A stretch of DNA of 64,000 nucleotides from Amyelois transitella (Eukaryota > Arthropoda > Insecta > Lepidoptera > Pyralidae), in the NCBI RefSeq assembly GCF_032362555.1, contig NC_083510.1, forward strand, positions 9,699,501-9,763,500. The letters run 5' to 3'. Shown here piece by piece: positions 1 through 40,895 of the stretch (positions are counted from its first letter, which is position 1; each line of letters opens with the position of its first letter). The notes beneath the pieces were generated by a model that was not told where the DNA came from, searched no databases, and worked only from the letters and a program-made list of their open reading frames with translations. The position numbers and the translations under genes were made by a program.

Positions 1-3000
1 TGTCGTGGCACGCAGACTTGGCAGTAAATTCGCGCGTCGCAGGTCTCTCGTCTTCAATCTTACATTCCAGTTTAGGTTCCTCTTTAGGCTCTTCTTTAAT
101 AACATTTTCTTCAATTTTGTCCACTTTCTCTGGCTTCTCCTCATCCGAAAGAACTTCGTCAGTTCTCAAAACAGGGTCACTGTGCTCAACAATAGCCTTA
201 GATTCCTCAACCACTGGTTCTATTGCCACAGTTTCTTCTTTTATCGGTTTATCAGCTTCTTCCTCTTTTACAACCTTTCTCTCTTCAACTGTTTCTGTTT
301 TTACAAATTCTGGCTCATCTATCTCAGGCTTTAACTCTTCTTTAGAGAGCAAATCTATCTCAGATTTAATTTCTGGTAAGAGTATTCTGTCATAATTGTA
401 AGGTATGGTTTTTTTGATAGGAGACATTGGAGAGAACTCCTGTTTGATGGGTGATTTCTTCTCAGCTTTGATAGGCAGACTCGAAGGATATTCTTTGACA
501 GGAGTAAGTGGCGGCTCGGGAGGTGGAGACATTGGAGAGGAACTACTGAAACATCTATTTCTACTTCTCTTCTCCCTTGGAGGATAATCCACACTCTTCC
601 TAGACATTTTGGTGTCATAATTCAATCCATTCACTTTACAATGCTTTGGATTTCCACAAGCACAAGGCTGCTTGCTACCATCAGAGTCATGACCAACAGT
701 TATTTCAGTGTCAGATTGAATTACTCCAATTGTCACTAAATAAACATGTAGAGTGCCTTTAACGATACAGTGTTGCAGTTCAGCATTAGGTTTACATGAT
801 CTCCGTACGAACCTAGCTTCGTTACCATATGTTCTTGTGTCGATACAGATTTGCGTGTTGTCTTTCGGTAATCTATAGAAAAATACGAAAGGACCCGGCT
901 TCTGACTGCCGGCCCGCGCAGAGTTCTGTAACTGCGGTCTATGCTGATTAGACAACATATACTTGCCCCTTAGTTCTATGATAGGTGTGTTTTCTTTCAA
1001 TTCTTTTATTGCAATCAAAATTTTGCCACCAGCGTGAGGCACTGTTGTACATAAATGCGCAGTAATAGCTGACGCCATATTCGGTGAATTACCAAGTTTA
1101 CTGCTGTATTTCATAATCTTAGCTCGCAGCTCTGGACTGTAATGATTTGTCACAGCTAGTTCATAAGATTCTTGCCAGTGTGACTGATTAGATACATTCA
1201 TGTTGTATTTGCTTCTATTCATCATAATTTCTTTCTTTCGTTTTACTCTCTTTTCTGTTAACTTTCTCTTAGGTCCTTTCCGCACAACTTCCGTTTTCTT
1301 AGGTCGCTTAGGACCTCTTTTAGGAGGCAAAGGTTGCAGCGGGGGTTGCGTCAGAGGCGGGAGCACCGGCACGGAGCTTGAATTGTAAGTGGTCACGAAG
1401 GAACCACTTGTATTGGTGTATGTGGTAACAGTCAACAAACGTTTTCTTTTTTGTCCTGGCGGCCGGCCGGTTTCAGAAGAATCTGAGTCTGACGCCGCCC
1501 CCAAGGCATTCAGTTCCTCCCGCTTTCGCATTTGAATCGCTCTGGCGTGGCGCCTATCAATAGGCCGCGGTAAGCAGAGTTCGCACATGTAAGTATCTGG
1601 TATGTTGTTCCTATCAATGCCCATGCAGTCGACATGTTGCCATTCCCCACATCGATCGCAGCATATCATATAGCCGTCGTCATGAGTGTAATCGCAAATG
1701 CATCTAGTTTTGCCTTCTTCTTCACCTTCGGGCGCAGTCTCTGTGTCGCTGCCGCCTCTGTTAGCCTGTGCACGGTCTCCGTCTAAGGACGATATTACCG
1801 AAGCCGCATCATCATCTGGCGGTGGTATTGGCAAGGGTTGTGGTTTGTAAGTTAAAGCTGCCATCGGAATGGAAGTGATAGGAATCGGGGGGCCGACCAC
1901 ACTGCTGGTTGGTACAGTAATTGGTAGGTCATATGATGCTGTGGACATAATAACTGGAGAACTCCTTTTCAATGGGCTAACTGGTGTAGCTGGAGTAGGC
2001 GAGACATTAGACGTCGGGGATAATGTCGATACCACCGTTGTAATAGCAGGAGGCGAAGGTGAGGGTTGTTTCTGTGCTGGTAATGCATATGTATGGTCGA
2101 GCATCACAAAAGCCAGCGCTTGAAAAGAGTAACGGCGGAATTCCTCAGTCAGATTAGGTCTCTCTTCCATTCCAATTATATCATCTGCTGTCTGTAGCGT
2201 CGTCTTGTCGCCACTGAAATAAAAGCAATTTAATTATTATACATGATAAGCCTTGACAATGTAATAAAAATGTTATTGAACTTATAAAATGATTTAATTG
2301 TATGCAATACTTACAAAACAATCCTCTTTTGGTTGTTCGGTTTAACTGCAATAATCTCTTCTATATGAATTGGGGTAGTTACATTTGCTACTATAGGAGC
2401 TGGGTTGGGATGTAACATTAATTTTGGTTGTGACAAAGACTGCAATATTTGTGCCGTCAATTGCTGGTTAGCTGATACTTGCGAAACTGTAGAGAGCTGA
2501 TTGTCTGATGTGGCATAAGTTTGAACATATCGTAAATTCGGAGTAGATCCTGATTGAACATAATGTGGCCCTTTAGGCAGGCTTGTACTTATTGGAGCAG
2601 TAGAAATCAACACTGGGCCACATGGGGATTGGAGCACTAAGCGTTCACCTTTTTGAGGAAATTTCATCTGATGTTGTATACTTGGCTTATGAGTGGGACT
2701 TCCAATTTTTTGTATAACTTTAGAACTATTGGTATCTAAAGTACTGTAAGTAGGTTGTGTCTGGTTTTTATAAGTAGTATTTGTAGAAGCACAAGGCTTA
2801 GTATCCGATTTTTGGGTAGAACCAGTTTGCTGTATTATCTTTATTGCTCTTGATTGATTTTTCTGTCCAGACACTTGGCTAGAATTCTTAGATCCTTTGA
2901 ATGTGTTAACAGATTTCTTCCCAGAATGTACTGACATTTTGTTAGGTCCAGAAACTACACGGGACAAAATATGGCACTGAGTGCTGCCTGATGATGCTGC

Positions 3001-5002
3001 AACCATAGCATTTAAGTTAGCACCATTGTTAACCTTATTCAATGCTTTATTTAAGTTTGTGCCTTTTGCAAATGTATGACTATAAGATACATTCTTAATG
3101 GGGCTGCTTATTACATTAGGCGAAACAGAGCAACCAATCAGTGATTGACTCTTAGGGGGTTTAGTACAAAGCACTGAGTTATTTACATGTTTCTGTGACA
3201 CTACATTTGTGCTCCATTTATAGAAATGACTTTGGGTGCCATACACCGGTGCTATTTCTTTACCCTGAGTGATGTATTGTTGTGAATAAGTAGTATTTTT
3301 TGGTATAGATATGTTGCTTAATATCTGAACCTTTGAATTTTTAGGTCTATAACTGGTTTCATTGATAATATTAGCTCTTCTGGTTGGATTTGTATCATTT
3401 ACATAGCTTTCACTAGTGATTATTATCTGTGAGACCGCAGCCTGTGACTGTTCTTCTTCACTTTTATCTGCAGTGGCACTTGTAGCAAGAACTGCTGGTA
3501 ACCACAATGTCTGATTGGTAGGAACATCTTGTGATACATTCTGTATAGTTGTTAGGTTACCAACCGCTGCATCAACGTTGATTGTAAAGTTCTGCGGCAG
3601 TTTAGTAACATTTTGAACTATTGCTGTGTTCAAAGGGGCTTGTATTATAGTGGCAGAGTTATCAATATAATTAGCATCACCTGAATCTTCAGTTTCTTGT
3701 ATTATGGGGTATGCAATGTTGCCTTCATTGTCAATGGTAGGTTCCTCTAACCTTATTATTCCTGGGAGTGAGTCCACTGACATATCTTGTTCACAAATTT
3801 TCTCTGCGATATGATACTCTACTTCCTTGTCTGCTTTATTATGAGCAGAGTGGACAACACTCTCAATGTTAGTGGAGTCTGGTTCGGTACCACCCTCAGT
3901 AGGAGATAAGGGCACAGCCCTAAGGACAGGAGTACGTATACTGGGTACATTCATAGTATCTGTTAGTTTTTGTTCCAATACTTGATCAAACACATTTTCA
4001 CTGGAGGTGGTCGGCCCGTAATCCTACAACAAAACAGAAACTATTATCATATGGACATAACACAATGTTTGAACATAATTTGCTGAAGGCAGTCTATTTT
4101 AAGAGCTCCTGTTAATCATATTAAAACAAAATTTACTGTTTTATATATTACAACAATGACATGGGTAGGCAGATATGCTGTTGTCCATCTAACGAATTTA
4201 TTATCATAAAATCAACATATATTTCTGTGGACTTGAATAATTGAATAACAGTCATATCAAATGCCCTCATTCACTTGTGATAGCCACTACCATGAACGTA
4301 CATGGGAAAAATCACATTATCTACTTACCATGAACACAAAAGCTGAAAGTCTTAAACTAAAGGACAATAAGTACACAGAAAGATTTATTGCATATTTACC
4401 AGAAAAGAAACAAATACATTGCATTTTCCAGAAAAAAAAGAAGATAAAAGTAATTCGCTGCAAAATTTCATAAACACTATATATACATAGCTGTAAGATT
4501 ATTTACATAATGTCTTCATTTAGGTAAGTAAGTTTATCTTTCTCTTTTCATATTTCCTGTATGTTTCACCACTACAACCTGGGATAGTTTTCTAACATTT
4601 CTCACTAGGATGCTTCATATTTTTATTTAAAGAATCAATCCAAAAAGAACATAGGTATGAAAGATATCAGAATCTAATAAGAAAATCTTGAGTCAGCTTA
4701 TATTATGTATTACATATCCATCACCTATGCAATAGTCTAAGCAAATACATGAAGCCTAACTTGGAAGAAGTATAGGAAGCTAACTGATGATAGCTTTAAA
4801 ATGTCCCTATTCAATGAATGATTTTGATGGTGTAAGAAGGTTGATATGGGGTAGGAAAAAAAGCAGTGTAAAATGAACTTACTTGCCGGGCCGCAGGTTC
4901 ATATTCTGATGTAGATGACATACCGTATAAACTATCATCTTGGGTCAAACCCGAGATGACGCTTTGGAGAGCTCCTCGGCCTCCCAAGTTTATTTCATGT
5001 GA
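1..5002 (-). CDS. upSET: upSET / MLL5 (KMT2E)-like PHD- and SET-domain protein, 3' end beyond window
   Basis: The coding exons are 4921-4883 (within exon 5002-4883), 4023-2315 and 2213-1, joined by GT-AG introns in matching phase (0, then 2). At least 1,320 residues are present and the frame is still open at the left edge. The N-terminal 750 residues are low-complexity Ser/Thr/Gln/Asn-rich. A PHD finger lies at about residues 754-796 (nt 1576-1702), with CIC, CCDRC, HVDC and CELC zinc ligands. A basic linker and a SET domain follow (about 960-1090, nt 690-1060), with FVRRSCKPNAE where active SET enzymes have NHSCxPN, then a Cys-rich CACGNPKHC segment and an acidic Lys/Glu-rich tail. This order and the divergent SET core are typical of fly UpSET, human MLL5/KMT2E and yeast Set3, which act with histone deacetylases at open chromatin rather than as strong methyltransferases. 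I chose the start at 4921 because the upstream frame holds a stop and no ATG. Identity with upSET is inferred from domain order. Confidence 0.9.
4024..4882 (-). other. upSET intron 2, no further feature
   Basis: This intron separates the start-codon exon from the long second coding exon. It is AT-rich, with a GTAAGT donor at 4882-4877 and a TTGTAG acceptor at 4024. Small open frames on the plus strand look random, and I see no mobile element. Confidence 0.6.
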
Positions 5003-10163: not shown

Positions 10164-13082
10164 ATGACTGATTTTGTTTTGAATGATAGTGACACTGAAA
10201 CGGACTCTGATGAGGAGGCAAGTATACCCACACCATACATACATAAAATCACGTTTCTTTCCCGGAGGCGTAGGCAGAGACTATCTCTTTCCACTTGCCA
10301 CGATCTCTGCATGCTTCCTTCGCTTCATCCACATTCATAACTCTCTTCATGCAAGCTCGGCGGTTTCGGGTACTTTTGACCTGACCCTATACCAGGACGT
10401 CCTTAATTTGATCAAGATACGTTCGTCTAGGTCCACTGTACCCACACCATTAATGTAAAAATTGTTTCTTACCATCAAACTATTACTAAACATAAGATTT
10501 TAATTTCAGCTACAAGAAGCGTTTGCCAAAGGTCTATTGAAACCAGGTTTGAATGAAGAAATCGAGAGAGTAGAAAAGACATACGTTAATAATGTTGCGG
10601 ATTTAAAAGCAAAGTTGAAAGAGTTCAAATTGAAGTTGCCATGGGTAGAGACATTGGATTTGGTGACAAGTGTAGCACCTATGGCTCCAGATGTGGCCTT
10701 GCAAATGCAGGAAACTGCTCTAAGAAGAAAGTAAGATTTTCTGTTATTAAATACTTTTGTCTATTGTTATGGCATCCAGCTGAATGTGTCCTTTCAGTCT
10801 TTTAGAGAGTATTGGCCCTGTGATCCATATAGGACTTATAGTGATATATTTCAGTATGTAAATTATGTTTTTGTAGTGCGACATAAATATTGGATTAATT
10901 GCCATGTGTGAACCACTTGTGATCAGGGCCACTCAGGTTTTAATTGACCATACAGCTTTTGTTCCTATAGCATAGCCTTAGGATCTTCCTCAATAAATGA
11001 GCTTAGGGTACAACAAATCCTATATTTTTAGTTCAAATTCCAGGCTATATTACTATGACACTGCAAGTTAAATTGTTTTCTATAATTATTTTAGGTATAA
11101 CCTATGATGGTGTCAGTACTATAAGAGTAACCTGTAAGGTTTAATTATTAAATCTCACATTTTTCACATTTCCAGAAACATAAAAGAGAATAGTAAAGGA
11201 AGTCGTGAATATGACCCAGCTCAAGATCCTGTACTGAATGAGTTCAAACGAGAGAACTTGATCCACAGACAAGCCCAGGCCGCAGTCGTTGAAGGTATCA
11301 AAAGACTGAAGGAACTTGGAGTACCCACTAGGAGGTAATAACATTATTAGTTATTCACATGTTATTATGTTGAATGGGTTTAATGGTTGCTTTTACTGGG
11401 CAAAGTACAAGGGGCAAGGTCCTGCTGACACTGGATTGCCAAATTTTTCGTCTGATCAAAACATAATCTATGTACTTTTCCGTACTTGAAGAATGGATCA
11501 GTGGTTTAACTGGGAAGATGTAACAAACTTTCGCGTTCATAATATTAGTATTATTTAAGTGATGGGTGTATCTATGCCCTTAGATCATGTAATAGTTATT
11601 TGAGCAGATGGACCATTGACAACTTTTTTCACCATTTCACATACATAAAATCACACCTATTTTCCAGCAGAGACTACATCTTTCCACTTGCCACGAACTC
11701 TGCATACTCCTATGTTTTATCTACATTCTCATAACTCTCTTCGTACAAGCTTATCAGTTCTGGGGTACTCTTGACCAGACCTTTTGCCAGATCTTCTTAA
11801 ATTTGATTTACCATTTTATTTAGCTAAAAGCACACAGAATACATAATAACTGACTAAAATATATATTCTAAAAATATATACCATACCTAATGATAAGTAT
11901 TCCTTTAATTTGCATATGGTGATGGGCACTGTCAAATAGAACCACTCTATATTTTTCCCATAGTATGGTAGGGTAGGTTTATAAACTTGAAATTCCTCTT
12001 GTAAGCAATAGAAAGAAAGAAAGAAAGAAAAATATTTTATTTGATATCACAAACTTAACTATACTAAGTAACAGATTTTACAATTTGTGCGTTTTTGTGA
12101 ATATCAATTTTTGTGAATATTAGCTAGCAACCTGTCACTATTTGAAACTGAATTCCATCATAAAGCCATACAGCTGATTGTGGCCTTTCGATCTTTTCAA
12201 GACTGTTATTTCTGTCTATCCCACAAGGGATATAGATGTGAGCATATGTATGTATTCCTTTAATACTTTACAGGCCAGATGACTTCTTCGCCGAGATGGC
12301 AAAGACAGATGAGCACATGCAGAAGGTTCGGAAGAATCTTATGGCGAAGCAAGCTGCACAAGCGCGCACTGAGAAAGTTCGTCAGCTCAGGGAACAGAAG
12401 AAGATTGCTAAGCGGGTTCAGGTAATGCATAAAATTGTACACAGAGTACAATTATATGAACTCGATAGGTAACATTTGAGTTACCTTTTTATTTATGGTA
12501 TACAATTATGCGTTGAATGTAGCCTTTCAGTCTTTTTCAAGACTGTTTGTACTGTCTGTCAGACGTGATTATTATGTATGTTTACCTTCCTCCACAGTAA
12601 CCTACACCTCTGTTATTTTCTGTGCAATATTTCCGTTATAAATCATTCAGTTTATCATATTGTTGTATTTGTTTTGGTAGGTATTTATATGAATGTTTTT
12701 GTTCTTACAGATTGATACGAAACTGAAACAGGCTGCAGAAAAACGTCAAATGCTTGAACAGTTGAAACGGGTGCGTAAAGGGAAATCTGCAGATTTGGAC
12801 TTTTTAGATGACAATAAGGGTAATAACAAGAATAAAGGTCCACCAAAAGGAGCTCAGAATAAAATCAACAAGCGGAGAGCTATGAAAGATAAGAAATTCG
12901 GTTTTGGAGGCAAAAAGAAGGGTTCTAAATTAAACACGAGGGATTCGTCAAATCAAATGGATGGTTTCAACAGTTCCGCTAAGAAAACATTCAATATTAA
13001 GAATAAATCTTTCAAACCGAATAATAATAAAAAGAAGAATCTTAGACCTGGAAAGTCAAAGCGACGAAATGCTAAGAGATAA
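10164..13082 (+). CDS. Ebp2: EBP2, nucleolar rRNA-processing / 60S ribosome biogenesis protein
   Basis: Five exons join in phase: 10164-10217, 10510-10730, 11176-11334, 12274-12421 and 12711-13082. They give 317 residues, close to human EBP2 (306). The N-terminus is short and acidic (NDSDTETDSDEE). The family core follows: LQEAFAKGLLKPGLN, LKEFKLKLPWVETLDL, HRQAQAAVVEGIKRL, GVPTRRPDDFFAEMAKTD and a Lys/Arg/Gln-rich coiled coil. The tail is very basic and ends RPGKSKRRNAKR, suiting nucleolar RNA binding. EBP2 acts in 27S pre-rRNA processing and 60S subunit assembly. Intron 1 starts with GC rather than GT (GAG|GCAAGT), the only choice that keeps the frame. A poly(A) signal AATAAA lies at 13120-13125. 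The gene converges on SRP72. The promoter is unclear because a transposon sits just upstream of the ATG. Confidence 0.95.
10233..10400 (-). repeat. Family B retroposon tail in EBP2 intron 1
   Basis: It contains CATACATACATAAAATCACG, then the cleavable block with CCACTTGCCACGATCTCTGC and CTTCATCCACATTCATAACT shared with 7604-7785. Its tail points left. Confidence 0.75.
11638..11810 (-). repeat. Family B retroposon tail in EBP2 intron 3
   Basis: This degenerate copy keeps CTTTCCACTTGCCACGA, CTCATAACTCTCTTCGTAC and the downstream GGTACTCTTGACC, with the ACATACATAAAATCAC tail to the left. Confidence 0.65.
11935..12255 (+). repeat. SINE-like family A copy in EBP2 intron 3, interrupted by a (GAAA)n-headed insert
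   Basis: The head block (11940-12000) and body block (12120-12255, GCTAGCAACCTGTCACTATT to CATATGTATGTATT) belong to family A. They are separated by about 110 bp beginning with an AGAAAGAAAG microsatellite (about 12008-12117), which looks like a second retroposon inserted into the first. Confidence 0.6.
12505..12582 (+). repeat. SINE-like family A 3' fragment in EBP2 intron 4
   Basis: It keeps the CCTTTCAGTCTTTTTCAAGA block and the ATTATGTATGTTT tail only. It is 5'-truncated. Confidence 0.55.
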
Positions 13083-13983: not shown

Positions 13984-16900
13984 CTACCACTTGCGGCCCT
14001 TCCCCTTCTTTTTCTGCTGTTGTTTGCGTTGCCACGCGCTGTCCTTCGTCTCTTGTACGCGAGGACTCTTGGCCGCGGCCGCTGTAGTACTAGCCAATGG
14101 CTGCTTGCTCATGTCACTGAAAATAAATTATTTCACATTACATCTTAATCCCTTATAGGATAGACAAGAGTCAATAGCCACAAGAATCTAAGGCCACGTT
14201 CAGTTGAGCCCATAGTTAAAAACTTCAGCTATGCATTGCAATGAGAAGACCAGTATTATTCACGAACGTTGAAAAAGCCAAGGTAATATCATCCATCTGT
14301 TTGTCATTTCGGATAACCAAATAAATAGAGTGAAAAGAGCTGCTAAACTGTACATTCAATTCTGTTCCAAATTAAAATTTAAAAAGGTAATTTTTTTGTT
14401 GTGTGTCTGCCAGTTACATGTCATTTCGTGTTGGCCACATACTGGTTCTCGAAAGTATTATTTTCAGTTGACTTGCTCAGAAGAATAAAAATAAAGTAAT
14501 ACTCATTATACTCATTACTCACTATTGGTCAGTGGCCGTGGAAGTCATGCCCTGGCTGCCCTTGATGACGTCACGCCGCACGCCGCGTCGCTTGCGGTAC
14601 GCTGTGCGTTCGTATTTCGGCAACCACCTGTTAAAACATTTATTTCTTTTGAAGGTCAGGGAATTAAAAATCCATAAGGCTAAGACACACTTTTTTTCAC
14701 TTTTGTTTTAAATGGATGTTCTTTTTTCATATTATATCGGCAATCAGCCTAGAGCTTTAGTCAGATTTGTTGATTATATAAAAATCTATAAAGAAAAATC
14801 TTGTCAGTTCTTGATTAATTGTATACCTCAATATATCCCTATTTACATACACTGCACATCATTTTCATTACTTAATAAAATATGCGGTTTTGCTATATAT
14901 AAAGGAACTTATTATTTAACTTGATAAATTGCCAATAGGCATAAAAAATAACGCAGTTCATGATTTCAAACTCTAATTTTATCTCTCTTATACCCTCTTT
15001 ACCTTTCTGGATCCGGAGGTCTGGATAAGTCGGCATTGGGAGGTAATTTCGTCTTCCGTTTGCGCTTCGCTTTCTTGGTTTGACCAAGTTCCGACCCGGG
15101 TGTTCTGTAAGGGTGTAATTTTAACACGAATTAGACATGTTTGTTTCCCAAATAAAATCAGGCTAATTTTGCTTCTCTGCACTCTTTCTTATGTAACTTA
15201 TATTTCATGTCATTGAGAGAAAAAGCTTCACTTGAAAGTAATTTCTCGATTTTCGATTCATACAAAAAAAAAATTAAAATTAAATTTAACAGTGAACCTC
15301 ACCCAGGCGATTGTTCCTGCTTGCTGACAGTCTTCTTCACCACTTTGGCTCCCATCATCCACTTGGACGATTCCAGAGCGTCGATGTCTATTTTGGTCTG
15401 AAAAAAAAAGTGTTAGAAGTACATGTCTGTGTATGATTGATCTATAGACAGAATAAAGTCAAATATTTTATTGATATATTTCCGAGAATGTGGCCTTTCA
15501 GAGTTCAAGACTGTTAGCACTGTCTACCCCTCTAACTAAGATTATATCTTTATTGTTCGTGTTATATAACTTACCGTGTGGTTCCCGGCACCAATACAAA
15601 AAAGATATATCCACTCCATATCTTTCCCATGGATGTCGTAAAAGGCGACTAAGGGTTAGGCTTACAAACTTGGGATTATTTTTCAGGTGATGGGCTAGCA
15701 ACCTGTCATTATTTGAATCTTAATTCTAACATTAAACCAAATAGCTGAATGTGGCCATTCAGCCTTTTCAAGACTGTTGGCTCTGTCTACCCCGCAAGGG
15801 ATATAAACGTGACCATATGTATGTATATAACTTACTTCCAGCTGATCCAATCTGGGCAGTTTCTTGGCCAGTTGTTTGGCCTTGGCGGGGTCCACGTTGG
15901 CCAACGCCTTCACCAGCCTGGCCAGGCTTCTTGTATCATCCGACTCTGACTAAGATTATATCTTAATTGTTCGTGTTATATAACTTACCGTGTGGTTCCC
16001 GGCACCAATACAAAAAAGAATAGGACAACTCCATATCTTTCCCATGGATGTCGTAAAAGGCGACTAAGGGATAGGCTTACAAACTTGGGATTCTTTTTCA
16101 GGCGATGGGCTAGCAACCTGTCACTATTTGAATCTCAATTCTAACATTAATCCAAATAGCTGAACGTGGCCATTTAGTCTTTTCAAGACTGTTAGCTTAG
16201 TCTACCCCGCAAGGGATATAGACGTGACCATATGTATATAACTTACTTCCAGCTGATCCAATCTGGGCAGTTTTTTGGCCAGTTGTTTGGCCTTGGCGGG
16301 GTCCACGTTGGCCAACGCCTTGACCAATCCGGCCAGTCGTCTTGTATCATCCGACTCTGACAAAGATTATTATCTTAATTGTTCATGTTATATAACTTAC
16401 TTCCAGCTGATCCAATCTGGGCAGTTTCTTGGCCAGCTGTTTGGCCTTGGCGGGGTCCACGTTGGCCAACGCCTTCACCAATCTGGCCAGGCTTCTTGTA
16501 TCGTCCGGCTCTGACTAAGATTATCATCTTAATTGTTCATGTTATATAACTTACTTCCAGCTGATCCAATCTGGGCAGTTTCTTGGCCAGCTGTTTGGCC
16601 TTGGCGGGGTCCACGTTGGCCAACGCCTTCACCAATCTGGCCAGGCTTCTTGTATCGTCCGGCTCTGACTAAGATTATATCTTTATTGTTCGTGTTATAT
16701 AACTTACTTCCAGCTGATCCAATCTGGGCAGTTTCTTGGCCAACTGTTTGGCCTTGGCGGGGTCCACGTTGGCCAATGCCTTGACCAATCTGGCCAGGCT
16801 TCTTGTATCATCCGGCTCTGACTAAGATTATCATCTTAATTGTTCGTGTTATATAACTTACTTCCAGCTGATCCAATCTGGGCAGTTTCTTGGCCAACTG

Positions 16901-19900
16901 TTTGGCCTTGGCGGGGTCCACGTTGGCCAATGCCTTGACCAATCTGGCCAGGCTTCTTGTATCATCCGGCTCTGACTAAGATTATCATCTTAATTGTTCG
17001 TGTTATATAACTTACTTCCAGCTGATCCAATCTGGGCAGTTTCTTGGCCAGCTGTTTGGCCTTGGCGGGGTCCACGTTGGCCAATGCCTTGACCAATCCG
17101 GCCAGTCGTCTTGTATCATCCGGCTCTAACTAAGATTATATCTTAATTGTTCATGTTATATAACTTACTTCCAGCTGATCCAATCTGGGCAGTTTCTTGG
17201 CCAGCTGTTTGGCCTTGGCGGGGTCCACGTTGGCCAACGCCTTCACCAGCCTGGCCAGGCTCCTGGTGTCGTCTGGCGCTGCTCTAGCCAGGGCTTCGTG
17301 CGCGGCGGCGGTGGCGGAGGGATCTCCGGCGCGCCGATGGATTTCGGCGGCCGCTCGCCACACGTCGCGGAGAGACGCGAAACGCTGATAACATATATAG
17401 GTATATGAGTTATAATAGGCTATTTTACACCATGTAAAAAAAAATATAAAAATGCACGTATCTTATAGATTTTGTAAAAAATAAAAGAAAAACATCGATC
17501 ATTATTCATAAAAGTGCAATATGGATTTTATAATTCAATTTAAAAAATTCTCTTTTTTAATCTGTTCTTCAAAAGTCGAAAACGCTATCCGCCATGTTGG
17601 GTACTGACGTGACGTCATACTTTTAGTAAACAAATATCGAATCGAAAACTTATTGATGATGTCAGGCTCTGTTTATTTTGAAATTTTAAAATTTCTATCA
17701 CGTTTTTGGGTTTTTACTCTTTAATAATTTAATAGAATCATGGAAGACGGTTTTGTGAAAGCAGACAATATAAATCTACCGAGGATTAATACGTTGATGG
17801 TTTCTCATTTTAATATCACTTGGCAGTGGAATCCATAATTTTTCTGGTGTTTTTATACTTGTATTCTTGCATTCAGGAACAAGACACCAACAATATGTAT
17901 TGTAATTCATTATTACAAAAATCTTTTTACTTTAGTCTTACGTAGAGCCGTATTGTTTACTAAAAGTATGACGTCACGAGTCAAAACAGCATGGCGGATG
18001 GCGTTTTCGCGCGAAAATACAAAATCATAAATAATAAATCGTTTTTAGAGCACTTTTCGGCTTCAAAAAATTTTAATAAAAATTCTATAGGTATAACACA
18101 GTCTCAGGATTGATTAAAAACAGTTTTCAAAAAAGAGTGTAATAGCCTATTATTTTTTTAAAGATTGTTCGGTGGAAAGGTGAATGTAACTGGCAGGAAA
18201 ATAGGAGCAGTAGAAAAAGATTATAGAAGAAAAAAAATTTTTAAATTGTTGGGTGGAAAGGTTTTCGGTTTAATTTTTTTAATGAATGGAATAAGAAAGT
18301 AATCTTCCACTTGACATAATTCCCGATGGTTTGTCTCTATTGAGTTATGGTATCGGAGAGTTTCATCACAACTTTAGCCTATGCTTGAACAAAGTCGCTT
18401 TGAATCAGTAGTTAAAAAAGAACATGTAAATATTGTAACATGTTACGAGAAATGATATACATATTTAAACAGTGAGAGAAATATTTAATAGAAGAGGACC
18501 ACTCTAACACGTGGATGTCGTAAAAGGCGACTAATGGAACGGCTAATGAGCTTGGGTTTTTCTTGTAGTTAATGGGTTAGCAATCTGTCACTATCTGAAT
18601 CTCAATTCCATCATAAAGCCACTCAGCTGAACTGGGCCTTTCAGTATTCAAGACTTTTGGTTCTGTCTACCCCGTGAAGGATATAGACACGACTATATGT
18701 ATGTAAGTATGCTACATCAAATGATGCATATTCTTGAATGATGATGGAATAAAATGACTATGTTGTTAATAAAATACCTAAAAAAACCCTTTAAAACGTA
18801 CCTTATCATCCTTATAATAATTGTAGACATCTTTCATCATATTGGATGCACGTTCCGTTTCACCGTCAGCACAGAGCAAAGTACAAAGTACTCCGATAAC
18901 GCCAGCACGATATTTATATTCACTCTCTTCTAGTAATTTCACTGCGGCTTTTCTGTCACCCTAAAACAAAATACAAAGTTAATACATTTTTGAGATGTCT
19001 AAACGGGGATTTTTTTAAACGAATAGCTACCTTCTCTCGTAATAAGAGATGATATTTTTTTTTCAAAACCTTTTTGCTACGGGACTTTTTTGAGTACCAT
19101 CAGCGCAGTATGTTTCTGTCAAATCCATCAGACTAATAATAAAAAGAAAAGAATTGTATTTTTGTATGTTTGTAATGAATAAACGCAAAAACTGCTGAAC
19201 CAATTCAAAAAATCCTTACACCATTTGAAATAAAATCTTTATTTTTCTAAATTGAGGTCTTACTTCACAATTTGTTAAACTAATCCCAACTGCCCAACTT
19301 TATGTACTGAGATATTGTACGTCGAAACCGCTTACCGCCGAGTATGTACAGTCATGTACTCTCTCTTTCCCTCCTTGGTCAAATATTAATTCACAATTTA
19401 TTCAGTTTTACGTGTAAATACTTATTTCGGTGAGTTCACTTGCCTGTGCCAACAAAACTTGAACTGCTGCGAAAATTAACGTGTCGCCATGTTTGAGCAA
19501 CAATGCGACGGCTTGCTGTCTCTTTCCCTCCTTGGCCAAAGATGACGCCTCCACTAAAGCGGCTCTTCGCTCTTGGCCGAATTCCCTCACGAGTTTCACG
19601 CAGCATTGTTTGCAGAAATCCGGCTGGAAGAATAAAATGTAGTGAGAATACTGTACATTCATTAGTAAATCTAAAATAAAAAATATGCAGAAAATTAAAG
19701 AATAAAAATTAAATTAAATTGGGCTTCTTTAGATTTCTCATATCGATATTTTGCCAATAACTTTCAAGTACTAATTTCTTATATGTATAGAATACGCATT
19801 TGCGTGAGACTTCGCTCCCGTGGGAAACAAAAAAAGTCTATATAATCAATGCCCAAGTGAAAATCAATCCAGTAGTTTTTAAGTTGATTCTTTACAAACT

Positions 19901-25094: not shown

Positions 25095-25365
25095 TTACTT
25101 ACATACATACATACATATGGTCACGTCTATATCCCATGCGGGGTAGACAGAGCCAACAGTCTTGAAGACTAAATGACCACGTTCAGCTATTTGGCTTAAT
25201 TAAAGAATTGAGATTCAAATAGTGACAGGTTGCTAGCCCATCGCCTAAAAGAAGAATCCCAAGTTTATAAGCCGTTAGTCGCCTTTTACAACATCCATGG
25301 GAAAGAGATGGAGTGGTCCTATTCTTTTTTGTATTGGTGCCGGGAACCACACGGCACCTTGTTAC
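25095..25365 (-). mobile_element. Full-length SINE-like family A copy
   Basis: Its (CATA)n tail is on the left at 25101-25117 and its head GGGAACCACACGG on the right. It contains every family block, including GTTGCTAGCCCATCGCC. Confidence 0.85.
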
Positions 25366-36300: not shown

Positions 36301-39211
36301 TTATTTGGTTTTACTTAGCAAAGTGTAGAAGCTGTAGCTTGCTCGGAGAATCTGTCAAAATAAATTTGATATTAATATAGAAGCTAGTTACGATAAAATG
36401 GAAAAAAATGCATCAACATTGTTTCACAATACAATAGTTGGAGGCAGACTCAGATAAAACAGGTTTTAACATATAGGCAAATAAGCTAAATGATTTTGAA
36501 AACTAGAACACCTGATGGAGAATCATGCATGATAGTGATGCTAAACTTTAAAAGATATAGAAATGACGCCCGCCGGCATCAACTAATTACCGATACATTT
36601 TGCTTCCAATATATCTACCGAACTCACCGCAATAAATGTTTGCAAAGACATTTCATTGAAAGGTCCGGCTCTGAATACCAGTTTCTTGTTAGTGCTAAGA
36701 CCTAGTATCGCCACCTCCTTCTGGATTTTAGCTGTGGACTGTGGCCAGTTGCTCTTGAAAGTGCTGTAGCTGACTAGAGTACTCTGCGAAGCGAGGATTT
36801 TATGAAAGCCTAATCAGCTACACCTGACGTTTGTTCCGCGTCCTCGCTTAAATTGAGACTTATTTTTTCTCGGTAGGAGAAATCCTTTTTACGGACTGCC
36901 TTCTGGGTCTTCACCCGTGAGAGTGTGGGACTCCTGGCATCTGATGTGCCAGCCTACCCACTAAAACCCCTCCGGTGCGCCCTTTTCGCCATTTTGAGGA
37001 CATCATGAGATCGCAAAAGTCCGTCAATGATCATGTAATTATTTAAAGTGATCCCTGACCTCTGGGCTGTGATCAATGGCAACGTATAAGGAACCTAACC
37101 TAAAACTCGGCACATATTACCATCATAAATTTGGGTTTGTATCCATCATCATGATAAGAATATTATTAGAGCTAAAGCTATGCCGTTGAGTTTTATCGAT
37201 TTCAATTGTTTTTTTTTTAAACAGAATTGAATTATATTATGATAATAACAGCTTGCCCAGTAAAATCCATTCCTTATTTGTTAGAAGTAATAAATAGGAT
37301 ATTGGTCAAATTTATTTACATAAAATTATTTCGGTACAACCTGCAATTCTAATTATGCAAAAAGCAAACAAATATTTTAGCGCAGTCGAGTTAAAATTAA
37401 AAATCTTGAGTGCACAAAATATGCTTTATATTTGAACCTAGAAATTTTATTTCCGAAGTTGCGCAAGCTCAGCCAATTATGTAGAAATCCAGTCAAAATC
37501 TGCGTAAACTCGACTCGGCGAAAAAGTTGCCAACTAATTTTTGCTGAAAGTTTCATGCAGCGTCGCTGTTTGATAGTTCCCGGAAGAAACTTGTTTTACG
37601 ATGTAGGCATAATCTCGTATCGAGAAAATGGGCTGCCGCCCATCCATTTCGATATTAAAGAGTAAGAACCAGCGAGGTTTTCAATGTAGTTGTACCTTAC
37701 TTACATTAAAATTCCACTGGATTCTTGGGCCTAATTTGTCAAACAACTAAAAGGAAGAACAGCGGGGCGATGGATTTTTGAAGTTTTTAAGTTTATTGAA
37801 GTGCAGTTTTCAAAAGTGGTTGCTTAAAGTATACCATATTAGAGTGCTATGATAATAGTTACCTCAACCGTGACTTCGTTAGCGTGCCAGTAGAAAAGTA
37901 GCAGTTGTATCAAACAAGCCATCACGAACAAACAACTTGCTATTAATGTCGTGACGTCGTCTTGCATCTAGGTAAAGTAAAATAGAATTGAGGTTTTTGA
38001 TTGAAAAAAAAATATCAAGCAGGGGGTTTGTTTAAATGTGATTTTTTTTTCTGTTCTTGAATTAACTTTTCCAGTAATAAAAAAAAGTTCTATGTTACGT
38101 AAGCTGTGCTATAGGTTTTTGACATGTGCAATTAAATATGTTATTACAGGTACAAACTTGGGCAATTTGAATAATACAAACTCCAAGGTTGACGGAAATT
38201 ACCACCAAGTACACATACATAACCGGAGATATCAGCTCGTTGAACAGCTTTTGGTATCTGAAAAAAATTATACACACACATGATACGGTCAGAGAACTTT
38301 CGAATTATTCACGAACTTTGATTATGAAAAAGTACCCTTGTTAAGTTTATTGAATAGCCCGTATAAGAAATGGCAAGACGTTGGCCGATGAAGTTAAGAT
38401 AGACTTGCGGCTTATTTTACTTACAATTATCAACTTACTTGACCAATTTAGTGTGATGTCGATGACAGTACGCAATATTTTCGTGACTTTCATTATCATC
38501 ACGATCTATGATCATTCTTTCGCAGTTAATTCGAGCAACCTTCAGTTGTCCGGCGAGAAATATCATAATAGTTACGACCAGAGTATCCCAGGCCACGACA
38601 TAAGCACTAACTATGTGACCTAATACAGTTTGGACGATCAAGGAGACATAATATCCTGGCGGTTCATTGCTGTAAGGAATGTAGCCATCAAAGATGTTCT
38701 TATACGTATTAGTTCCATCATCATTTTCCTGGTTTAGACGGTATGGCTCAGAAAAGATGTTGAAATTGGAAAAGAAGGCCAGCGCCCAGAAGAAATAGGA
38801 TACTCGACGGCTTTGTTTGATATACTTGTTTATTTCCAGGCTTTGTTCGTTTTTCTTTAACAGTTGATCACGTTCTAGAGACGATACGTAGAATATGACA
38901 TTCTCCCATTTCTTATAATCCTTTTGAAAGAAGCAGCTCTTTACTATGCCCATGTGGAACGGTGCATACTGCAGTATTAATGTCAGCGATTCTCCGTCAC
39001 ATTTAATGAGGCACCTAATGTACTGACTGCAGAAAAATGCTACCGTGATATAGAAGAGATACAGTTTGAATTTTTCAATTTTGGTATTATTTGGGTGCCA
39101 TAAACCAGTAAGACTTAAGAGACGAAGGTGGGGACCTACTGAAGGGTACCTAGGGTCTTCAAGGTATGATAATATTTTTTCAAAGCAACATGGACTATTT
39201 TTTCGGAACAT
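36301..39211 (-). CDS. Insect odorant receptor (7tm_6 family), complete
   Basis: Five exons join in phase: 39211-38439, 38257-38158, 37967-37863, 36783-36628 and 36351-36301. They give 394 residues, the usual length of insect odorant receptors. The family's C-terminal signature is complete: an exon ending ISVNLGVCIIQIAQ, one with LLLFYWHANEVTVE, one with VSYSTFKSNWPQ and FRAGPFNEMSLQTFIA, and the last coding ILRASYSFYTLLSKTK and stop. Hydrophobic segments include LYLFYITVAFFCSQYI, VSYFFWALAFFSNF and YVVAWDTLVVTIMIFLAG. Such receptors pair with Orco to form odour-gated cation channels in antennal neurons. The ligand cannot be inferred. The frame is open upstream of 39211 but has no ATG, so MFRKNSPCC is taken as the start. 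The 1.1-kb third intron (36784-37862) has no identifiable gene. Confidence 0.93.
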
Positions 39212-39339
39212 TTTTACGATGTGTATTCTTGGCGTTCCCTTGTTTGAATGAAAATAATTTCTATAAGTAGATATTTTGTCGGTGTAATATGAATAATTTG
39301 CGAGTGATAATAACAGGTTACGGACTTGCACTGTGTAAT

Positions 39340-40895
39340 TAACGGCAATTTGTCGTAACGATATGATTGCAACCGCGGTTAATTATATATTTTAAAGGGA
39401 AATTAACATTTTAGTTAAAACGATCACGATTCTGATTTTATGTAATGCTCCAAATTGTTTTATTATTTCAGTGTACTTAGGTACAATATAAAAGTATTAA
39501 TTAAATAGAGCAATTTAATATTTGCACATTTTTTTAAACTTTTTTTTCAACTGTTCTTTGTTTTTCAGGAAAGAATTAAAATTTCTTGATTAAAATCAGC
39601 CGGAACTTAAACTTGCAAACTATTAGAATGCGAGCTACTATTATTATGCAAGTTCTTATAAATTTTTTTTAGAATGTACCCCTAATAGGTATAACTTAGA
39701 ACCAAGGTTTTTTTATGAAAAAAAGCTTATCTGTTATAAAAAAACTCCATTATAAAAACTCAATATAATAAATAAATATCTACTTTTTTTTCTTTTTAAT
39801 AAGTAGTTTTAGTTGTAGTAGTAATAACATACTAGTTATAAAACATTTATTCATAAAACAGGTACTTGCTAAATTGCGCCATTGTGTCATAATAAAACTT
39901 TCAAAAAGTCGCGTTAAATATTGCGACAAACAGAGAACTTCTTTCTTTTTTGACGTTGATTAAAAATAATAGGTACCTATTTATGTACCAAATTTAATCA
40001 CAATTAGACAATAAGAACTCCTACGCAATGATTTGTCCCCTTATCTATTTCGTCGGACGTAGCTAATGTAAGTAGTTCAGTGAACAATGTCAATGGAATT
40101 CCCGTTTCCGAAGTTTTAGTGAGAGTGCTGGTTGAATGCTGAACCCCCTTTATGTCCAGATAGCATCGCCGCCGGAAATTAAAAGGAAATTGTATTTGTT
40201 TCTTATACAGCGACGTTCTCACAATAAGACGCCGTCCCTCCGTTGTGTAATATAAATAATACTTAATTCGCCTTAGGATTAGGGGGTTAATTAAGTAAGC
40301 GTTTGGACGAAAATAATTAGTGGAAATCTAATAAACACTTTTGTCTGTGTATAGTGTGATTGATAAAATCTATGAAAGCTTTTGAACTTGTTGTTTTATT
40401 TATATAGGCTTCTAGTAAATTCCATGACCGATGACTGTAGGTCCTTTCCTTAAAGATATTGATACCTTTTAGCTAAAAATCAGGTTTTCAAAAATTTCTC
40501 CCCTCATCCTTCTAATGGGCAATGCAGGAAGGTCATCTTTGAAGTGCATTTGTACGGCGAACGAAGTGGTGAGCAACAGCCAACTAAATTAAGAATAAAT
40601 TTTTAAGTAACTTACCAAGTTACTAAGTGCTGCTATAAGTCCGACATTACAAAATAAAAGACCATCTAGTTAGGTCTTAAGAACATACAAAAAATACCTA
40701 AAGAGATTTATTAAAAAAATAATCTTCATAATAAAATAAAAAATAAAGCAGGTCAGTTTCACCGGTAGGCGGTAGGTAGCTACTTATTTTTCTTCAAAAC
40801 GTATTTGCTGGTCCTTTCTATTTGTGGATAAAGGAATTTATATTTAATTATTTTTATTTTCCATCGTAGAAGATATTCATCAATTAAAACTTGTT
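39340..40895. other. Intergenic upstream of the odorant receptor; no gene seen
   Basis: It is very AT-rich with poly-T runs (39530-39800). The receptor promoter must lie near 39220-39500, but I see no clear core promoter motif. The frame at 40004-40222 (minus) has no recognisable similarity. Confidence 0.4.

Follow-up and report, generated by a model that had tools for sequence, protein, structure and literature searches.

Partial tandem copies of exon 9 in intron 9 of the Amyelois transitella SRP72 gene as putative weak in-frame cassette exons

Intron 9 of the gene for the protein-sorting factor SRP72 in the moth Amyelois transitella contains seven additional copies of the 3' end of exon 9, every one with an intact 5' splice site behind it, and the question raised by this locus is whether such copies serve, or have served, as exons. 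The locus was analysed within a window of 64,000 nucleotides (C6:9699501-9763500) from a genome of 327 Mb in 33 contigs; "the window" denotes this whole stretch, and all positions are counted from its first letter. An initial annotation of the array, made from the letters alone, had raised the possibilities of decoy donors, poison exons or a young exon-derived satellite. The reading that we favour, with roughly even confidence, is that a duplication across the exon 9/intron 9 boundary gave rise to an array of weak in-frame cassette exons that would normally be spliced out.

The host gene is SRP72, as both its RNA-binding domain and its tetratricopeptide (TPR)-like repeats were identified. The product matches the Pfam SRP72 domain (PF08492, E 2.8e-14, 53.6 bits with a cut-off of 25) and SRP_TPR_like (55.7 bits, cut-off 35), and PDB chain 7obq_z (SRP72) aligns to residues 13-643 with E 4.4e-122. 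The gene is complete on the minus strand, where 13 exons run from 22608 to 13984 and encode 644 amino acids up to a terminal stop codon. Exon borders were assigned by eye, guided by open frames and the splice consensus, and this gave 12 introns of 166-1771 nt, 11 of them GT-AG and one GC-AG. The latter is intron 7, with an apparent GC donor at 19443 on the minus strand (CAG/GCAAGT). The source exon, taken as exon 9 in the initial annotation, is number 9 of the 13, and intron 9, with 1771 nt, contains the array.

The repeated segment is the 3' end of exon 9 (about 114 nt, the last 36-38 of its 72 codons), and every one of its seven copies ends in a GTAAGT donor, in addition to the true donor at 17168. 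The sequence GTAAGTTATATA stands directly behind each copy as it does behind the end of exon 9, and all eight donors share the same 12 intron bases. Tandem Repeats Finder delimited the array at 16235-17261 with a period of 154 and 96% matches. The number of copies, their intact donors and their period of 153-154 bp are thus as initially annotated; what did not stand is an uninterrupted period, since two full short interspersed elements (SINEs) break the regularity. The near-nucleosomal length of the period looks coincidental to us. Any two copies are distinguished by 0-10 of 114 sites, and 8-16 of 114 separate a copy from exon 9; in all seven the frame is open without stop or indel, in agreement with the claimed similarity and preserved frame. 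The copies are head-to-tail homologues of an exon in its adjoining intron, as expected of tandem exon duplication, but none of the seven comprises the whole exon with its own acceptor; an acceptor is instead supplied by sequence of intron 9. An AG does precede each copy as had been suggested, although the uniform TTAGTCAG is not universal: the double AG has the form TTAGTTAG in copy 1 and that of TTTGTCAG in copy 6. In copy 1 the CTTAGTTAGAG that also occurs in the last spacer precedes CCGGATGAT, whereas copies 2-7 carry TCAGAG.

Which of the two AGs would be used decides the coding outcome. Cleavage after the first one (CTTAG, intact in six of the seven copies) yields a symmetric exon of 114 nt, phase 0/0, which adds 38 residues in frame, whereas the second, four bases further in, yields 110 nt and a frameshift. 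The addition of 110 nt with a shifted frame that the initial annotation foresaw therefore holds for the second AG but not for the first, and a frameshift as the sole result of copy inclusion was ruled out by the in-frame acceptor. It is because of this acceptor that our main hypothesis moved from a poison exon to a coding cassette. A single 114-nt insert gives an open protein of 682 amino acids with each of the seven copies, and all seven together give an open one of 910 amino acids, if copy 6 is included despite its lost AG. On the other hand, 110-nt inclusion truncates the product to 511 or 539 amino acids with every copy. A premature stop upon inclusion is accordingly found for the 110-nt form in 7/7 copies and for the 114-nt form in 0/7 (copy 6 without the AG needed), and in length and phase the units fit in-frame splicing, with the AG present in 6/7. 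The match to Pfam TPR_14 (residues 435-476) extends into the beginning of the unit, and the 38 residues comprise the end of one TPR and the next segment, the latter aligning to the SRP72 structure in PDB. We call the unit TPR-like on these grounds, and it would correspond to about one such repeat; the 38 residues of copy 2 on their own matched no Pfam family at E 0.01.

The differences between the copies and exon 9 are far from evenly spread. Codons 16-38 of the units closely resemble exon 9, while 6-12 sites of codons 3-15 do not match it. Counted at third positions alone, the differences number 5-9 of 13 for codons 3-15 and 0-2 of 23 for codons 16-38 (Fisher p up to 0.016). The clustering was significant in all seven copies (permutation p 0.0005-0.014). 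Of nine diagnostic sites, all are of the unit type in copies 1-3. The exon 9 type occupies the last site in copy 6, the last two and one early site in copies 4 and 5, and the last four, from codon 11 onwards, in copy 7. The start of the exon-9-type stretch consequently varies among copies, a mosaic with staggered breakpoints such as would result if the units had repeatedly exchanged sequence with exon 9, in almost every case on their 3' side. Together with the identity of copies 2 and 3, and of copies 4 and 5, over their exon parts, and with a duplicated SINE (see below), this is homogenisation by exchange as expected of an intronic minisatellite, and the amplification or homogenisation of an exon-derived array, as initially suggested, is borne out. 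A second SRP72 locus was considered as the source of the diverged 5' block and rejected: a genome DNA search with a query of 562 bases (exon 9 end plus copies 1-3) gave five matches, none of them off-locus, with only the best candidate region scored, so that absence elsewhere is unproven.

Nonsynonymous and synonymous changes, whose comparison the initial annotation had recommended along with that of pairwise identities, were counted in codons 3-15. Relative to exon 9, copies 2 and 3 have nine synonymous and no nonsynonymous changes (proportions of synonymous and nonsynonymous sites changed, pS 0.78 and pN 0), copies 4 and 5 six and none, copy 7 five and one, copy 1 ten and two, and copy 6 nine and three, counts that are related and not independent. 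If both branches had been neutral, nine of nine synonymous changes would have a probability of 1.2e-5 to 5.2e-5, and at least nine of 12, as in copies 1 and 6, one of 0.001-0.004. Simulations were run with a nonsynonymous to synonymous rate ratio (omega) of 0.05 on the exon branch, and only runs with 8-10 synonymous differences were counted. When the unit branch was neutral and equal in length to the exon branch, runs free of nonsynonymous change numbered 0/181 and 0/245, and runs with three or fewer made up 1.1% and 0%. This suggests that the units probably had a coding role over a large share of their history, provided that the bulk of the changes did not occur on exon 9.

Several observations weigh against this conclusion. 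The junction codons 1-2, excluded from the count of nine to none, add two nonsynonymous changes in copies 2-7 and three in copy 1. When the unit branch took up 20% of the time, runs without nonsynonymous change were still rare (0-0.6%) and those with three or fewer rose to 8-14.5%; half-relaxed units (omega 0.5) reached three or fewer in 6-40% of runs, and strong constraint (omega 0.05) itself yielded none in just 15-23%. Rejection of neutral units at 5% requires that at least 0.14 of the nine changes lie on the unit branch, a share that rises to 0.38 when three nonsynonymous changes are counted, and neutral units would fit if most synonymous changes fell in exon 9. The GC content at third positions of codons 3-15 (0.92 in exon 9, 0.54 in unit 2) is compatible with either direction of change. 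Two replacements, S to R and R to G, occur in copies 1 and 6; P to S is found in copies 6 and 7 and S to L in copy 1, and copy 6 has lost its in-frame acceptor. Moreover, 7 of 114 exon sites distinguish copy 6 from copy 7, three of them diagnostic sites of exchange with exon 9, and this is no less than the divergence of the adjoining SINEs (15/256), so that no recent constraint is visible. The lack of indels in the copies was also considered as proof of constraint, and it is not significant in comparison with SINE and spacer sequence (p 0.14-0.23, from manually entered counts); the entry of 15 exon substitutions, where 13 sites vary among the copies, would weaken it further.

Would the units be recognised by the splicing machinery today? 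Acceptors were scored with a small weight matrix built from the 12 acceptors of the gene itself, leave-one-out, and the scores are indicative only. The true acceptors have a median of 7.8 and a minimum of -1.8 (exon 8). The six intact TTAG acceptors of the units score -1.3 to -5.9; those of copies 2, 3 and 5 (-1.3) exceed the weakest true acceptor, but 16-34% of 237 background AGs score equal or higher, and acceptor strength therefore fails as proof of use. The second AGs of six copies score -2.5 to -7.9, and the best unit acceptor is the TCAG of copy 6 (16360-16365 region), with 4.3 in the top 3% of the background AGs. The acceptor of exon 9 itself (17384, minus strand) has almost no pyrimidine tract and scores 4.4.

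Spacing is a further obstacle. Six of the seven gaps ahead of units measure 39-40 nt, the SINE-bearing spacers being longer: copies 6 and 7 are 297 nt apart, and 438 nt separate copy 7 from exon 10. In Drosophila, splicing of 40-50 nt introns is slow, their acceptors are weak and their branch points lie near -14; minima of about 35 nt from donor to branch point and 15 nt from branch point to acceptor are given (PMC5762160). The motif TTAAG is found at -14/-15 in six of the eight spacers, only about 25 nt from the donor as compared with the fly minimum of about 35 nt, and splicing across the six short gaps is therefore doubtful. Introns that start from a non-adjacent donor would have at least 193 nt and could use the ATAAC found at -27/-28 in all eight spacers. 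A CTAAC motif and a T-tract mark the acceptor of exon 10, and for this reason the junction of 17168 to 15397 is the predicted default.

The SINEs provide a marker for the history of the array. Both occupy the identical point in the spacer, one behind copy 6 and one behind copy 7, and both are flanked by repeats of GTAAGTTATATA. Their alignment shows 15 differences in 256 sites and a further seven gap columns; in seven columns they have in common a state that most of nine other copies in the window (nine of 17 further places) lack, two of these states being absent from all nine. Two independent insertions are ruled against by the same 12-nt target duplication and the seven co-occurring states, and a single insertion that was later duplicated together with its unit is probably the simplest reading. 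As SINE 1 is nearly as close to the copy at 25114 (90.7% identity) as to SINE 2 (92.7%), the identity of the target sites carries most weight here. The target-site duplications at 15988 and 15574 (minus strand) also regenerate perfect GTAAGT donors, with no exon before them. Outside the array 17 more copies or pieces of the same family, candidate Metulj-type SINEs of Lepidoptera, were found in the 64 kb (BLAST E up to 1e-5), for example at 25114, 27126, 50584 and 61483. Beyond SINE 2 the array ends with an eighth spacer that has no exon behind it, probably the original breakpoint on the intron side, and then an older SINE fragment. That the array is young, as had been proposed, may hold for the latest copies, but the SINE pair already shows its 15/256 differences, and codons 3-15 of the units are far more diverged from exon 9.

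Table 1. Positions of the array components, the flanking SRP72 exons and neighbouring features in the window.
Feature	Position	Strand	Remarks
SRP72 exon 9, array source	17169..17384	-	216 nt, phase 0/0; repeated part is the last 114 nt, 17282-17169
Spacer 1, exon 9 to copy 1	17130..17168	-	39 nt, intron-like, GTAAGT...CTTAG
Copy 1	17016..17129	-	114 nt; CTTAG acceptor; donor 17015; LEPDDTRRLAG...
Copy 2	16862..16975	-	Identical to copy 3 over 114 nt; donor 16861
Copy 3	16708..16821	-	Identical to copy 2 over 114 nt; donor 16707
Copy 4	16555..16668	-	Identical to copy 5 over 114 nt; donor 16554
Copy 5	16401..16514	-	Identical to copy 4 over 114 nt; donor 16400
Copy 6	16247..16360	-	CTTAG changed to CTTTG; only TCAG acceptor remains (110 nt, frameshift); donor 16246
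SINE 1, in spacer behind copy 6	15989..16234	-	Full; target-site duplications GTAAGTTATATA at 16246-16235 and 15988-15977
Copy 7	15836..15949	-	Donor 15835
SINE 2, behind copy 7	15575..15823	-	Full; same target-site duplication at 15835-15824 and 15574-15563
Terminal (eighth) spacer remnant	15530..15574	-	GTAAGT...CTTAGTTAGAG; no exon behind
Older SINE fragment after array	15486..15530	-	Shares one G with the terminal spacer remnant
SRP72 exon 10	15303..15397	-	CTAAC branch-like motif and T-tract at acceptor
EBP2-like rRNA-processing gene	10504-13079	+	Convergent with SRP72; piece at 10504 below the Pfam cut-off, piece at 12693 above it
Odorant receptor-like open reading frame (7tm_6)	38438-39382	-	315 aa
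Open frame	2314-4023	-	570 aa; no Pfam match at E 0.01

The favoured origin may be pictured as follows. A segment of 154 bp, from the 3' end of exon 9 into the start of intron 9, would have been duplicated in tandem, and the joint would have fused the intron, after TTAGAG, to the exon at codon CCA (CCAGAC). Each unit accordingly combines an intact 5' splice site, an intron piece of 39-40 nt that ends in AG in all but one unit, and 38 in-frame codons. Such a duplicate was probably translated for long as an in-frame cassette and later amplified to seven units, on one occasion together with the SINE; meanwhile the 3' part of the units would repeatedly have been reset by crossing-over or conversion involving exon 9. 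At present the array is most likely discarded by default. Given strong donors, weak acceptors and upstream gaps of mostly 39-40 nt, the units would be included at a low level at most, and they should be reached more easily from a non-adjacent donor than from the one next to them. The most normal spacing is that of copy 7, preceded by 297 nt and followed by 438 nt.

The alternative that we take most seriously, while leaning against it, is a functionless minisatellite born from an exon and always removed with intron 9, in which the copies retain an older state and the synonymous changes fell mostly in exon 9 under selection. The weak acceptors, the short gaps, the SINE-like divergence of copies 6 and 7, the lost acceptor and the tolerated SINEs are all in line with this, and a gain of GC in exon 9 would suit the third-position values; it demands, however, that the majority of the nine synonymous changes be placed on the exon 9 branch, and it does not by itself explain why changes are nearly absent from codons 16-38. 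Decoy donors or poison exons that reduce productive SRP72 mRNA, by a premature stop and decay after use of a downstream donor or a 110-nt acceptor, appear distinctly unlikely. Eight equal donors do face one strong acceptor, an exon 9 lengthened as far as any one of the seven extra donors, with no splicing in between, meets a stop at codon 506, the 110-nt form is truncated with each copy, and the 110-nt acceptor of copy 6 is a fair one. Yet the second AGs of the other copies are poor, exon definition would prefer the first donor where unit donors lack a good acceptor upstream, and an in-frame alternative exists with the frame kept in all seven copies.

That several units are spliced together into an SRP72 with up to seven added TPR-like repeats is very improbable. 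The seven-unit protein is open, with copy 6 counted though its AG is gone, but six of the seven gaps would have to act as introns of 39-40 nt with a distance from donor to branch point below the fly minimum (PMC5762160), and the acceptors are weak. An artefact of assembly, which the identical exon parts of copies 2 and 3 and of copies 4 and 5 might suggest, is scarcely credible, as the other copies and the two SINEs hold many private differences and the locus lies at 9.7 Mb of a contig (C6) in an assembly of 33 contigs. The boundary duplication with weak in-frame cassettes is the reading we retain. An extension of it, which we consider unlikely, is that growth of the TPR solenoid is in progress, with phase 0/0 TPR-like cassettes placed before the RNA-binding domain giving isoforms of graded length. 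Spacing would then impose zero, one or non-adjacent units, copies 6 and 7 with their 297 nt being exempt, and the function of the repeats would be maintained by ongoing conversion with exon 9.

Like the array, intronic minisatellites have tandem units, exchange between units and homogenisation, but here the unit is derived from coding sequence, in frame and endowed with a perfect donor. Tandem exon duplication with mutually exclusive splicing is known from Mhc, among other genes. Like the mutually exclusive tandem exons of Dscam and others (PMC6071210), the copies are head-to-tail, frame-compatible and mostly too close to their neighbours to be joined; unlike them, they represent only the 3' half of an exon, encode near-identical protein and have spacers of 39-40 nt. 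In the RNA-dependent RNA polymerase gene of potato (PMC4974935) the duplicated segment also spans an exon-intron boundary and passes on splice signals. There, a single duplication took place on the side of the first intron and second exon, with a new intron detected, whereas in SRP72 the exon 9/intron 9 side with its 5' splice site occurs seven additional times, with a weak AG near the intron start and putative splicing. Novel introns of Drosophila have weak splice sites and also obtain their splice signals from tandem-duplicated coding sequence, albeit by single duplications inside coding sequence rather than by an array in a pre-existing intron (PMC2891723, PMC2809761). Finally, the spacers resemble the ultra-short introns of Drosophila (PMC5762160) and human (PMC4463651) in their length of about 40 nt, a weak 3' splice site and the TTAAG 14-15 nt before the AG in 6/8 spacers, and with 39-40 nt they are at or below the spliced lengths described, 40-50 nt in flies and 43 nt in human. 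The record entries retrieved for SRP72 with Lepidoptera, or with insect exons, alternative splicing or isoforms, describe no array of this kind. Neighbouring features of the window are listed in Table 1.

The array offers a natural series in which eight identical 5' splice sites on near-identical exon ends stand against one strong acceptor, and a SINE-tagged instance of an exon-intron boundary becoming an array of potential in-frame exons. It could serve to test the creation of exons and introns by tandem duplication as well as the minimum length of insect introns, and to test whether repeat proteins may be lengthened by amplification of exon units in a housekeeping gene.

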